From the NCBI GenBank assembly GCA_900019385.1, contig FIZJ01000022.1, positions 1-64,000 of the forward strand: 64,000 nt of DNA. Direction: 5' to 3'. Source of the DNA: an uncultured Clostridia bacterium. GTDB lineage: Bacteria; Bacillota; Limnochordia; Darwinibacteriales; DTU012. The notes beneath the pieces were generated by a model that saw only the letters and a program-made list of their open reading frames with translations, had not been told where the DNA came from and did not search any database. Both the position numbers and the translations under genes were made by a program. Position 1 is the stretch's first letter. Each line of letters opens with the position of its first letter. Below are positions 8,281 to 47,453 of this stretch, one piece after another.

Positions 8281-8300
8281 TTTGATGCGCAGGTGAACAA

Positions 8301-8339
8301 AAAGGTGCTTTTCCAAAGGAGTGGAAAAGCACCTTTTTT
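8301..8339 (+). terminator. Strong bidirectional terminator
   Basis: A 14-bp perfect stem (AAAGGTGCTTTTCC with GGAAAAGCACCTTT) is followed by a T run. It sits between the convergent solute-binding protein and MATE genes and can serve both strands. Confidence 0.9.
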
Positions 8340-8357
8340 CTCAAGTGATCGGGTGTT

Positions 8358-9761
8358 TCAGGCTTGGGCTTCCACTTGACTTTCGGCAGATGTTTCCCGC
8401 CGCCATTTGCCTCTTCTGTAAAACACTGCAGTGACTACTGAACCCAAAATCCAGGCGATCAATAAAGAAACAAACACCGATTCCGGCCTTCCTGTGGGGT
8501 ACAGCTCGCTTCGGGTGAAGTAGGCGAAACTGTAGGCGAGGGGAACCCGCAGGCCGATTGAGGTAAAAAGTGAAATCCACATTGGGGTCACGGTATCGCC
8601 GACGCCGCGCATCACTCCAGCCAGGCATTGGGTCACAGCCATGGCGATGTAGCCCGGGGCGAGAATGCGCATCATCCGCATGCTTATGTTCACAAGTTCT
8701 TCGGTGCTGGTGAAAATGCTCATCAGGTAGCGGCCAAAGAGCAGGATGCCGATTGTAATCACGGCGGCGACTGCCACAGCGATTTTCGTCCCGTCCCGGG
8801 CACCTTGGGCCACCCGATCATAGCGTTTGGCACCGAAGTTTTGCCCTGCAAAAGTGGTCATGGCGGCGCCAAAGGAAAAATTAGGCATCATGGCAAAACC
8901 GTCTATACGCATGACGATTACATTGCAGGCGATAACCAGCTCACCGAAACTGTTGGTCAGGGATTGAACAGCGATCAAGGCCAGCGAAAAGATGGCTTGG
9001 GTAAGGCCCGACGGCAATCCTAACTTGAGCAGCCTCAGCGTCAGATCCTTGCCCGGCTTTAACATGGCCCAACTAAGATCAAAGTGTTCTTTCATCCTCA
9101 TGAGCTTGAGAAGGCAGAGAACAGCTGAGAACGCCTGGGCGAGAGCGGTGGCGAGCGCCACACCGGGGACGCCGAGGCCGAAACCAGCCACAAACCAGAT
9201 GTCAAGTACTACATTTAACAGTGTCGAGATAACCAGAAACAAGAGCGCGGAGGCAGAATCCCCCAAGCCCCGCAGAATTCCGGAAAAGATGTTGTAGAAC
9301 AGGAAACCGGCAGCGCCGATGAAGAGAATGTTCAGGTACTCACTACACCAGTCGATGATCGATGGCGGTGTGTTCAGCAGTTCCAGCAAAGGCCTGCTGA
9401 CCAAAGGCCCGATCAGCATGACTGCCCCTGTCGTGATGGCGGTTAGTGTAATGCAGATGCCAATTGTGTGTGACAGATTAGCCCGGTCTTTCGCCCCGAA
9501 GTACTGCGACACTTGGATCCCTGCGCCGACAGAGATGCCCACGAACAAGACCAGCAGCAGATGGAGGACAGGCATGGCGCTGCCCACCGCAGCCAGGGCA
9601 TTGTCTCCGATGTACATGCCGACAATGATCGAATCAACGGTATTGTAAAACTGCTGGACGACATTGCCGATCAAAAGCGGGATGCTGAATTCGACAATCC
9701 TTTTCCAAGGCGCACCTTGAGTCAGATCTTTTGCAGTGAACAGATTCTTTAACGATGCCAT
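8358..9761 (-). CDS. MATE family efflux transporter
   Basis: Twelve-helix multidrug and toxic-compound extrusion exporter driven by H+ or Na+. The N-terminal MATE signature is visible (IPLLIGNVVQQFYNTVDSII, GDNALAAVGSAMP), with the internal repeat at about residue 240 (GLPSGLTQAIFSLALIAVQ). At 467 residues it is of full family length. ATG follows GGAGG at proper spacing. It is transcribed away from the gene at 9984 and shares a terminator with the solute-binding genes. Substrate unknown. Confidence 0.9.
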   Translation of the reverse strand: MASLKNLFTAKDLTQGAPWKRIVEFSIPLLIGNVVQQFYNTVDSIIVGMYIGDNALAAVGSAMPVLHLLLVLFVGISVGAGIQVSQYFGAKDRANLSHTIGICITLTAITTGAVMLIGPLVSRPLLELLNTPPSIIDWCSEYLNILFIGAAGFLFYNIFSGILRGLGDSASALLFLVISTLLNVVLDIWFVAGFGLGVPGVALATALAQAFSAVLCLLKLMRMKEHFDLSWAMLKPGKDLTLRLLKLGLPSGLTQAIFSLALIAVQSLTNSFGELVIACNVIVMRIDGFAMMPNFSFGAAMTTFAGQNFGAKRYDRVAQGARDGTKIAVAVAAVITIGILLFGRYLMSIFTSTEELVNISMRMMRILAPGYIAMAVTQCLAGVMRGVGDTVTPMWISLFTSIGLRVPLAYSFAYFTRSELYPTGRPESVFVSLLIAWILGSVVTAVFYRRGKWRRETSAESQVEAQA

Positions 9762-41779: not shown

Positions 41780-43108
41780 ATGGACACCACAGCCAGCGAA
41801 GTGCTGCAGTTTGTGAAAGAGAGCGATGTGAAGTTTATCCGGCTTGGTTTTTGCGATTTGTTCGGCTTTCAAAAGAACATCGCCATCATGCCCGGCGAGC
41901 TTTTGGCAGCTTTTGAGCACGGTATTTCGTTCGACGCATCGGCTGTCAAAGGTTTTAGGGATTTCAGCAACTCGGATCTGCTGCTTTTTCCTGACCCGGC
42001 AACATTGAGGGTTTTGCCGTGGCGTCCAGAACCGGGAAGAGTGATCCGGTTCTACTGCGATATCAGAAACCCTGACGGGTCACCTTTCGAGCGTGACAGC
42101 CGTTATCTGCTAAAGCGGGTGGTGGAACGCTGCGAGAAGCTGGGGTTTATCTGCCGCATTGGCGCCGAATGTGAGTTTTACTTGTTCAAGACCGATGAAA
42201 ACGGCGAACCTACAGAGCAGACATTGGATCACGGCGAGTACCTGGATATCTATCCCTTGGACAAAGGCGAAAATATCCGGCGCGAGATCTGCCTGTGCCT
42301 AGAAGAGATGGGGATCAAGCCCGAGACATCCCACCATGAGCAGGGGCCGGGGCAGAATGAAGTTGACTTCAAATACAGCGACGCCCTGTCCTGTGCCGAT
42401 GACTTTCTGACATTCAAGTCGGTTGTCAAGGCCATTGCCGCACGGAATGGACTGTTCGCCTCTTTTATGCCGAAGCCTTTGGCCGCTGCGCCCGGGAGCG
42501 GGCTGCATATCAATATTTCCCTTGCCAAGAACGGTTTGAACATTTTCGGCAGCCGTTCTTCCCAGGCGATCGACCAAAGTTGGGTGGCCAACAGCTTTAT
42601 TGCCGGAATTCTGGCCAAAGCCCCGGAAATCACTCTGTTCCTCAACCCACTGTGCAACTCTTATGACCGCCTGGGCAGTTTTTCAGCGCCGCGGTATGTC
42701 TCCTGGTCACATCAAAACCGGTCCCAGTTGGTGCGGATTCCTGCGGCCTCTGGAGATCGGATCCGGATGGAGCTGCGCTCTCCGGATCCTGCTGTCAACC
42801 CCTATCTGGCCTTCGCCCTGATCCTGGCGGCAGGCTTGTCGGGTATCGAGCAGAAACTGAACCTGCCCCCGGCTGTGGACCTCGATCTGTACACATTGGA
42901 TCCCACTGCCGCTGAAGCGCTGACAGCCCTGCCTGCGAGCCTGGAAGAAGCAATTGCACTTGCCCACGGCAGTGAACTTGTGCGGGATGTCATAGGTGAG
43001 GAGCTGTTGTCTGACTATATCGCCTTCAAAAGAAAGGAAGCAGCGGCTTTTGCTGCGGCCGAAGACAGGCAGGCTTTCTACCGGCAGCATTACTTCCACA
43101 GGATCTAA
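41780..43108 (+). CDS. glnA: Glutamine synthetase type I
   Basis: Dodecameric glutamine synthetase. The N-terminal beta-grasp domain shows VKFIRLGFCDLFGFQKNIAI and the FDASAVKGF segment. The catalytic domain has IGAECEFYLF, HEQGPGQNEVDFKY, PKPLAAAPGSGLHINISL and LRSPDPAVNPYLAFA. Length 442 matches the GSI-alpha class, and I see no adenylylation loop of the GSI-beta type. AGGAGG with a second AGGAG precedes ATG 41780. It is followed by an ANTAR regulator gene, an arrangement known in Clostridia. Confidence 0.94.
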   Translation: MDTTASEVLQFVKESDVKFIRLGFCDLFGFQKNIAIMPGELLAAFEHGISFDASAVKGFRDFSNSDLLLFPDPATLRVLPWRPEPGRVIRFYCDIRNPDGSPFERDSRYLLKRVVERCEKLGFICRIGAECEFYLFKTDENGEPTEQTLDHGEYLDIYPLDKGENIRREICLCLEEMGIKPETSHHEQGPGQNEVDFKYSDALSCADDFLTFKSVVKAIAARNGLFASFMPKPLAAAPGSGLHINISLAKNGLNIFGSRSSQAIDQSWVANSFIAGILAKAPEITLFLNPLCNSYDRLGSFSAPRYVSWSHQNRSQLVRIPAASGDRIRMELRSPDPAVNPYLAFALILAAGLSGIEQKLNLPPAVDLDLYTLDPTAAEALTALPASLEEAIALAHGSELVRDVIGEELLSDYIAFKRKEAAAFAAAEDRQAFYRQHYFHRI

Positions 43109-43162: not shown

Positions 43163-43732
43163 TTGGAAAGCGCGTTAATTGTGACCAGCTCCGAAAAGGG
43201 CACAGCGTTCTTTACAGAGATGCTGTCAATGGCGTCCATCGCTGAAATCGCCACCCTGCGCACTTGCGCCGAGGCCCGCAGGCTTTTGATGGAACGGGAT
43301 TTTGATCTGATCATCATCAATTCTCCTTTGCGGGATGAATCGGGAGAAAGCCTTGCCCGGCATGCCGCAGCAAAAGGGATCAGCCAGGTGATACTGGTTG
43401 TCAAAAGCGAGTACTTCGAAGCGGTGTCGGCCCAGACTGAGGAGTATGGTGTGCTCACGGTCGCCAAGCCGATCAACCGGTCCATCTTTTGGTCCGCGTT
43501 GAAACTGGCCAAAGCCGCCAATGTCAAGCTGAAGCAGATGCGGGCAGAGAATACGAAGCTTGAGCAAAAGCTGGAGGACATTCGCGTCATCGACCGGGCT
43601 AAATGCATTCTCATCTCATACCTCGGCATGACTGAAAAAGAGGCCCACCGCTATATCGAGAAGCGGGCCATGGACATGCGAGTCACCAGAAAAGCAGTGG
43701 CGGAAAGTATCCTGAGGACTTATGAGAACTGA
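43163..43732 (+). CDS. ANTAR-domain response regulator (antiterminator)
   Basis: RNA-binding antitermination regulator. An N-terminal receiver-like domain (residues about 1-120) lacks the usual Asp-Asp pair at its start (ALIVTSSEKGTAFF), so phosphorylation may be weak or absent. A coiled coil (KLKQMRAENTKLEQKLEDI) leads into the C-terminal ANTAR three-helix domain (VIDRAKCILISYLGMTEKEA...RVTRKAVAESIL). Such proteins bind leader RNAs and prevent termination. The gene is directly behind glnA, so hairpin leaders upstream of glnN and the glutamate synthase operon are candidate targets. The TTG start at 43163 is weakly supported. Confidence 0.85.
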   Translation: MESALIVTSSEKGTAFFTEMLSMASIAEIATLRTCAEARRLLMERDFDLIIINSPLRDESGESLARHAAAKGISQVILVVKSEYFEAVSAQTEEYGVLTVAKPINRSIFWSALKLAKAANVKLKQMRAENTKLEQKLEDIRVIDRAKCILISYLGMTEKEAHRYIEKRAMDMRVTRKAVAESILRTYEN

Positions 43733-45829: not shown

Positions 45830-45858
45830 TTGACGAACTGCCAATAACTGGATATATT
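45830..45858 (+). promoter_or_regulatory. Promoter of the SAM riboswitch unit
   Basis: TTGACG (45830-45835), a 17-base spacer and TATATT (45853-45858), starting 12 bases after the dapL stop. Confidence 0.7.
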
Positions 45859-45883
45859 GTATGTGCCATTCCCTAACTGAATA

Positions 45884-45994
45884 TGTCTTATCAAGAGCGG
45901 GGGAGGGACGGGCCCTATGAACCCCGGCAACCAGCAGTGCTGCAAGGTGCCAATTCCCGCAGGGAACCGAAGTGATGCCCTGAGAGATAAGAGC
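45884..45994 (+). ncRNA. SAM-I (S-box) riboswitch
   Basis: P1 pairs TCTTATC (45886-45892) with GATAAGA (45986-45992). The conserved core is present in order: AAGAG, GGGGAGGGAC, GGCCC-TATGA-A-CCC, CGGCAACC, AAGGTGCCAATTCC and the closing GAGAGATAAGA. This is the classical SAM-I consensus, which shuts off the downstream gene when S-adenosylmethionine is abundant. A terminator follows at 46001. Confidence 0.95.
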
Positions 45995-46000
45995 GAATTT

Positions 46001-46031
46001 GCCTTCCTGGTATCCCTGGGAAGGCTTTTTT
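46001..46031 (+). terminator. Expression-platform terminator of the SAM-I riboswitch
   Basis: GCCTTCC pairs with GGAAGGC and is followed by six T, 20 bases before the start codon of the 85-residue ORF. Confidence 0.88.
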
Positions 46032-46050
46032 ACAAGGAGGGAAAAGCAAA

Positions 46051-46308
46051 ATGGATTTCTTGGACAAAGCAACAACCCAGTTTGTCCGGGACAGGATCAA
46101 AGAAGCGGCGTGGGCAAACAGTGCCTACATCTCTGGCCTGTGCCAGATGGAAAGCATCATCAGGCGGCACGGGCTCCGCAGTGTTATGGAAGCGATGCTG
46201 TTGGCGAGCTTGCGCTCCAGGTATCCGGTGGAATTTCGGTGTATTATGGACCAGACAGCAGTGGATGGGGGCCCGTTTCAATCACCGATGATCGGTGAGA
46301 GCAGATAG
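46051..46308 (+). CDS. SAM-riboswitch-controlled 85-residue protein, family not recognised
   Basis: ATG 46051 follows AAGGAGGG at ideal spacing and stands just after the riboswitch terminator. It is the only plus-strand gene that the riboswitch can control, because the next gene is on the opposite strand. The product is predicted helical, with segments DKATTQFVRDRIKEAAWANS, GLCQMESIIRRHGL and SVMEAMLLASLRSRY. It has no signal peptide or membrane segment and contains two cysteines. The stop overlaps the convergent M42 peptidase gene by 31 bases, so the C-terminus might be a truncation. A methionine/SAM-related role follows from the regulation only. Confidence 0.7.
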   Translation: MDFLDKATTQFVRDRIKEAAWANSAYISGLCQMESIIRRHGLRSVMEAMLLASLRSRYPVEFRCIMDQTAVDGGPFQSPMIGESR

Positions 46309-47330
46309 TAATAGACAAGCTTGGCCGTATTGACAACCGCTTCCATGTGTGTCCGCTCAAAAGCATGCGACGCGTCGATCCCAGGCCCAACCAGGCCGTG
46401 GATTAAATCATGGCCTGCTCTTAGTGCGGCGCTGGCATCGGAACCGTAATGGGGGTAGATATCCACTTTGTAGTTAAGCCCATGCTGTTCCGCCAGATCC
46501 ACCAGGCGCTGCCGAAGCTGGTGGTTGTAGGGGCCTGTTGAATCCATGGCACAGATGCAGACCGAATACTCGTCAGAAGTCTGGCCGTCACCGACGGCGC
46601 CCATGTCCACCGCCAGGTACTCCACCGCCTCGGCAGGGATGTTGGAGTTTCCGCCAAACCCTACTTCTTCATGAGTGGAAAACAGAATATGAGTAGTATA
46701 AGGCAGGATCACATTGTTTTCCTTGATTGCCTTGATCAAATACAGCAAAATCCCGGCGCTTGCCTTATCGTCAAGATGCCGTGACTTGATGAAGCCGCTG
46801 GGAGTCAGCACAACTCTCGGGTCGAAGGCAACAAAGTCCCCAACACCGATCCCCAGCTTTTTCACATCATCAGCTGAAGACACTTTTTCATCGAGGCGGA
46901 CTTCCATGGTGTCGCTGCTCCGTTCCAGGGTGCCGGCGTCTTTATAGACATGCACCGAGGTCTTGTGCATCAGAATGGTCCCGGTATAGACCCCTTTTGA
47001 GGCAAAGATCTGGCAGTACTCCCCTTCAATGTGATTCCAGCGGCTGCCGCCGATCAAAGACAGTTTCAGCCTGCCGTCGGGTTTGATTTCCTTGACCATA
47101 GCGCCCAAAGTGTCCAGATGCGCAGTGATGATCCGCCGCTTGGCTGTGTTCTGCCCCTGGAGGGTGGCCAGCAGCCCGCCTTTGCGGTTGCGCTGATTTG
47201 GGATGCCCAAGCTGTTTAGATAGGCTTCAAGCTTCCCTATGACTTGATCGGTGAATCCGGCCGGGCTCGGCACCGCGACCAACTCGCGGACGATTTCCAT
47301 GACTGCTGTCCCGTCAAAATCGATTTGCAT
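46278..47330 (-). CDS. M42 family metallopeptidase
   Basis: Dinuclear-metal aminopeptidase/endoglucanase-type peptidase that forms large TET-like oligomers in known relatives. Metal and catalytic motifs are visible: ITAHLDTLGAMV (His-x-Asp), SRHLDDKASAGIL (bridging Asp), FSTHEEVGFGG (catalytic and metal Glu), LAVDMGA (Asp) and ASHAFERTH (C-terminal His). Length 350 is normal. ATG 47330 is preceded by AAGGGGG; ATG 47357 is possible but has no ribosome site. A cytosolic role in peptide turnover is likely. Confidence 0.9.
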   Translation of the reverse strand: MQIDFDGTAVMEIVRELVAVPSPAGFTDQVIGKLEAYLNSLGIPNQRNRKGGLLATLQGQNTAKRRIITAHLDTLGAMVKEIKPDGRLKLSLIGGSRWNHIEGEYCQIFASKGVYTGTILMHKTSVHVYKDAGTLERSSDTMEVRLDEKVSSADDVKKLGIGVGDFVAFDPRVVLTPSGFIKSRHLDDKASAGILLYLIKAIKENNVILPYTTHILFSTHEEVGFGGNSNIPAEAVEYLAVDMGAVGDGQTSDEYSVCICAMDSTGPYNHQLRQRLVDLAEQHGLNYKVDIYPHYGSDASAALRAGHDLIHGLVGPGIDASHAFERTHMEAVVNTAKLVYYYLLSPIIGD

Positions 47331-47453
47331 GCGATCATACCCCCTTCCCATATTCATTGTTTGTCAAATGGAAAATTCCTGCAGGAGCAGGATTATTCCG
47401 GTTCACTCCCTAACAATAGAATAGGCCAATGAGTTGGATAGGAGAATGGAGCA

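Follow-up and report, generated by a model that had tools for sequence, protein, structure and literature searches.

An S-box usually signals a methionine or SAM gene, and the genes behind such switches are expected to be read through at low SAM. In Listeria, the SAM riboswitch RNAs SreA and SreB have been reported to act in trans. A small regulator of Bacillus subtilis, anti-TRAP (rtpA/yczA), is induced by uncharged tRNA-Trp via a T-box (PMC11255114). Furthermore, a comparative study of RNA regulons notes a probable link of novel genes behind SAM riboswitches to the metabolism or transport of cysteine and methionine (PMC3766115). Here, we analyzed an S-box followed by a single open reading frame (ORF) of 85 codons in a stretch of 64,000 nucleotides from an uncultured Clostridia bacterium (the window). 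The initial annotation of this DNA had proposed the small protein as a candidate new member of the S-box regulon, with a truncated gene as the fallback. The switch, the protein family, its association with S-boxes and the truncation of the window copy were demonstrated by computation. We regard it as likely that these four together explain the locus, with the window copy as a decaying relic.

The leader follows a dapF-like and a dapL-like gene of the same orientation. A sigma-70-type promoter candidate (45830–45858, + strand; TTGACG-17-TATATT, 10 of 12 matches) begins 13 nt past the end of the dapL-like gene, just 5' of the aptamer. The initial annotation had reported a full promoter; the hexamers are indeed present, but with 2 such sites found versus 1.4 expected by chance the candidate is weak taken alone. 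The SAM-I riboswitch (S-box) aptamer at 45885–45993 (+) matched RF00162 over the full length (model positions 1–108) with 84.5 bits (E-value 1.5e-18), compared to a gathering score of 44.4. Nearly all of its base pairs are standard, and it represents the sole Rfam match within the 64 kb. The expression platform consists of an intrinsic terminator at 46001–46030 (+), with a 10-pair stem (46001–46025) followed by T6 (-15.8 kcal/mol). The Shine-Dalgarno sequence AAGGAGGG (46034–46041, +), also seen in copies of the same genus and the same order, lies 9 nt 5' of the ATG at 46051, and the ORF of 85 residues extends to a stop codon ending at 46308 (+). The order of S-box, terminator, ribosome site and start codon given before, including the coordinates, was therefore borne out. 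The same holds for the observation that no methionine-cycle gene follows. Nothing co-directional was found 3' of the ORF, and the next gene, a complete M42 aminopeptidase gene on the opposite strand (46278–47357, -; PF05343, 282 bits), is a convergent neighbour outside the unit, whose 3' end is overlapped by the last approximately 30 nt of the ORF. Elsewhere in the window, an ANTAR-domain response-regulator-like protein is encoded at 43163–43732, 3' of a glutamine-synthetase-like gene (41780–43108, named by translation).

With this architecture the locus would represent a standard SAM-I transcription attenuator for one gene. At high SAM the terminator would fold and transcription would halt, and at low SAM read-through of the leader would lead to production of the small protein. 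We infer such a SAM response of the window leader in the cell. The usual S-box antiterminator, in which the 3' strand of P1 pairs with the terminator's 5' arm, can form in relatives and is strong in G059b, G425, G247 and G063 (about -16 to -17 kcal/mol). Against this explanation of the window locus speaks the weak antiterminator of its own leader, with -3.6 kcal/mol in a minimum-energy model.

Homologues of the ORF were identified by profile search in 12 of 151 genomes of relatives and in 17 of 398 genomes of a phylum-wide sample, with a patchy distribution; additional copies came from other searches. A second phylum sample yielded identical genomes and is not an independent test. Scored against a profile from which its own sequence had been left out, the window ORF reached 73.9 bits, compared to at most 6.8 for 2000 shuffles. 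Codon conservation, the absence of which the initial annotation had regarded as speaking against the gene, was observed for residues 1–65, with pairwise pN/pS values of 0.30–0.62, and of 0.35–0.62 for the window copy compared with relatives. Intact members comprise approximately 118–130 residues. Their invariant positions include T9, T19, I27, L30, E34, P59, I65, E68, G72 and W113 (numbering of the G033 protein), and they carry a charged C-terminal stretch with W..GG at the end. The single commonly kept cysteine is C64 (15 of 18 members). An AlphaFold2 model of one intact member (L105 protein; pLDDT 87.8) is all helix, with helices at residues 10–18, 21–38, 45–57 and 59–71 and a long C-terminal helix at 77–115. 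Pfam, NCBIfam, PHROGs and PADLOC yielded weak, mutually inconsistent matches, none of them significant. Nothing significant was found for the family by sequence search of the PDB, nor by Foldseek comparison of the predicted model with the PDB and viral models, and the literature searched, with incomplete coverage, contained no description of it. A phage, plasmid or viral origin was rejected, as those collections gave no match. The possibility raised before, that the ORF is the front end of a longer known gene, was thus correct for the length and not for the knowledge of the gene, which is in no library searched. As judged from these comparisons of sequences, the window ORF is genuine, though damaged, and belongs to a protein family not described before. 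Two family copies each were observed in G059 and G148.

As the initial annotation had suggested, the homologues were inspected for S-boxes of their own. A complete S-box was found directly 5' of 12 intact copies from several family-level lineages (G013, G032, G033, G048, G059 twice, G063, G247, G295, G425, G456 and the MAG locus L110) and of four damaged copies (G000, G004, G029, G405). The S-box-linked copies belong to families f1, f3, f13 and f64, plus L110. For each of these copies a terminator candidate was listed, those of G013 and L110 being overlapping or weak. The start codons assumed for G295 and G247 are off, which makes their S-box-to-start distances approximate. At a density of about three S-boxes in 2.4 Mb, one would by chance lie within 350 nt in the correct orientation with a probability of approximately 2e-4 per genome; this is a rough estimate for copies that are not independent owing to shared descent, yet several lineages are involved. 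We are aware of the fact that the genomes showing the association overlap those used for building the profile. L110 and G456 came to light once the association had been noticed, and both fit. The relatives represent a sample of mostly metagenome-assembled genomes, with neighbourhood genes called by a simple ORF picker. In the G032 contig, group II intron matches were observed approximately 1–3 kb 3' of the intact gene (L107:7305–9108).

The window genome contains four S-boxes; two of the others precede metY-metX-like and metY-metA-like pairs, with gene names taken from translations without family search, and the fourth is located at a contig end. In the S-box-bearing genomes examined, wherever the gene behind a further S-box could be read, it was metN-metI-metQ, metK, or metY, the latter alone or together with metX or metA, names again read from translations; the G063 site L149 is excepted, and one G059 transporter site reads as a broken operon. 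Next to the family gene, no conserved neighbour was shared across lineages when 30 regions were compared. The commonest non-family cluster occurred in at most 9 of the 30, was broad and showed no consistent placement beside the gene. Deducing a function from gene neighbours failed, as none was common across lineages. We consider the family to be an S-box target that recurs, standing alone, in scattered lineages of Bacillota, and a credible new member of the S-box regulon. In this respect the earlier proposal stands for the family, with its 12 intact copies behind S-boxes, whereas the 85-residue product of the 3'-truncated window copy differs from the normal protein of the family.

Several members lack a complete S-box. 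In those f76 and f86 genomes with the gene that were tested, no S-box was detected anywhere, and these members form one clade on one side of a gene-tree branch (support 80/88), consistent with a single loss of the switch. A search for a replacement regulatory RNA in this clade with Rfam at a relaxed threshold yielded nothing credible. A 26-nt block close to GGnnAnnCCGCGCAnnTGGCGTACTA is conserved in this clade (L158, L159, L160, L161, L163). Of 8 genomes searched, 4 carry the block 5' of the family gene; G290 has it at the end of a contig, with the gene itself unreadable there, and G183 has it once at another place. Its interpretation as a mark of a methionine regulon was not supported by these placements. 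Ahead of its gene, G103 has kept half an S-box, the 5' one, together with a terminator; a second S-box of 43.2 bits, just below the gathering score, lies 3' of the gene, with a terminator and without an evident coding region. This locus (L058, about 8300–9240) looks like a decayed remnant of a tandem duplication. G388 contains a family fragment only.

The fallback offered by the initial annotation, a truncated gene, proved right for the window copy. Residues 1–65 (46051–46245, +) correspond to the N-terminal helical region of the family by profile match and pN/pS, and the remaining 20 codons plus stop (46246–46308, +) form a non-homologous tail fused at the M42 gene, in which the C-terminal helix and W..GG of the family are lost. 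E68, E79, F80, W113, G117 and G118 are missing or changed. The conserved N-terminal positions T9, F11, W21, Y26, I27, L30, E34, P59 and I65 are present; departures were found at I7, T19, R24 and G40, which 14 or more of the 18 intact members conserve, and T19 is invariant in all 18. The AlphaFold2 model of the window product (pLDDT 74.1) retains five N-terminal helices and has a disordered tail. Homology to the M42 gene of the same genus starts at approximately 46290, thus the last approximately 19 nt of the ORF are the 3' end of that gene. Since G004 keeps FeoB-like, FeoA-like and DtxR-like genes (by translation) between the small gene and M42, a deletion or another rearrangement joined the two in the lineage of the window, and the copy lost its 3' third on being joined to the M42 3' end. 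Decay was also observed in other genomes, including G004 and G003 of the same genus. The G004 copy contains an in-frame TAA at codon 66 and ends at residue 65, followed by a remainder which is still family-like in frame; this looks like a recent nonsense mutation. The G029 copy carries two TAG codons, the G003 copy is a degraded remnant with a frameshift and a lost S-box, and G001 and G002 gave no family match. In G405, the S-box leader and the first approximately 23 family codons are joined, in the same reading frame, to an AhpC/TSA peroxiredoxin ORF of 245 residues (L043:1224–2238), which places the peroxiredoxin under S-box control.

Because both the 3' third and conserved residues are lost, the window copy, although its switch is still in place, is probably a relic in decay, and it has presumably lost its function. 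Against this reading, residues 1–65 are open with pN/pS below 1, although most of the divergence may predate the truncation. The 85-residue product could instead be functional as a short form, if the N-terminal helical region suffices in this genus. The intact ribosome site, start and S-box in the window would fit this explanation, as would the constraint on residues 1–65 versus relatives, the five helices kept in the model and the G004 copy likewise ending at residue 65. We consider it unlikely, since the window departs at the four conserved positions I7, T19, R24 and G40, the G004 sequence past its TAA is still family in frame, resembling a recent nonsense mutation, and the G003 copy is clearly degraded, with no match in G001 or G002.

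Even less probable appears a retention of the S-box RNA itself, with a SAM-dependent short transcript acting in trans and the ORF as a by-product under loss. Twelve intact copies and protein constraint in distant lineages argue against it, and the clade without S-boxes retains the protein without the RNA. On the other hand, the S-boxes are well conserved 5' of the broken ORFs of G000, G004 and G029, and the 94%-complete genome of G004 has no other detected S-box than the one before its broken family gene. Similarly improbable is that S-box and gene form a dispensable or self-spreading cassette without housekeeping role. Such an element would explain the patchy presence in 17 of 398 phylum genomes, the paired copies in G059 and G148, the tandem duplication remnant in G103 and the repeated decay. 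However, the protein is under constraint, phage, plasmid and viral collections contained no match, and a shallow search recognised neither a transposase family nor repeats as common neighbour.

The relic reading of the window copy is therefore preferred, and the locus is valuable mainly as a pointer, the copy itself being broken. A family standing recurrently alone behind S-boxes in separate lineages makes a good starting point for finding a regulator or step of SAM homeostasis that has so far gone unrecognised. An all-helical small protein without recognisable active site suggests a binding partner. Tentatively, the likeliest role of intact members might thus be that of a small regulator or adaptor of a methionine/SAM enzyme, transporter or regulator under SAM shortage, which is in line with the comparative study cited above (PMC3766115). 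By the same token it is conceivable, albeit doubtful at present, that an undescribed helical family made at scarce SAM acts as a dedicated regulator of methionine/SAM metabolism in scattered Bacillota, and would in its logic mirror anti-TRAP on the side of SAM. This function is deduced from the regulation, as informative neighbours and fold matches are absent.

Compared with the described systems, the family gene shares the aptamer, terminator platform and ribosome site with the S-box regulon genes metNIQ, metK and metY/metX, and occurs in the same genomes. Its product is unlike any enzyme or transporter and represents a stand-alone helical protein of approximately 120 residues that is in no library searched. 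With SreA/SreB it has in common an S-box with a downstream ORF not recognised as a methionine gene; in contrast to these, the intact relatives of the window ORF encode a conserved protein. Anti-TRAP is under another RNA sensor and is a zinc protein, whereas the family keeps at most one common cysteine; the zinc-binding cysteines of anti-TRAP are absent from it, only C64 being common (15 of 18). The likeness to anti-TRAP is one of logic, with no homology claimed: in both cases, a small protein stands under an RNA sensor of the state of one amino-acid pathway.
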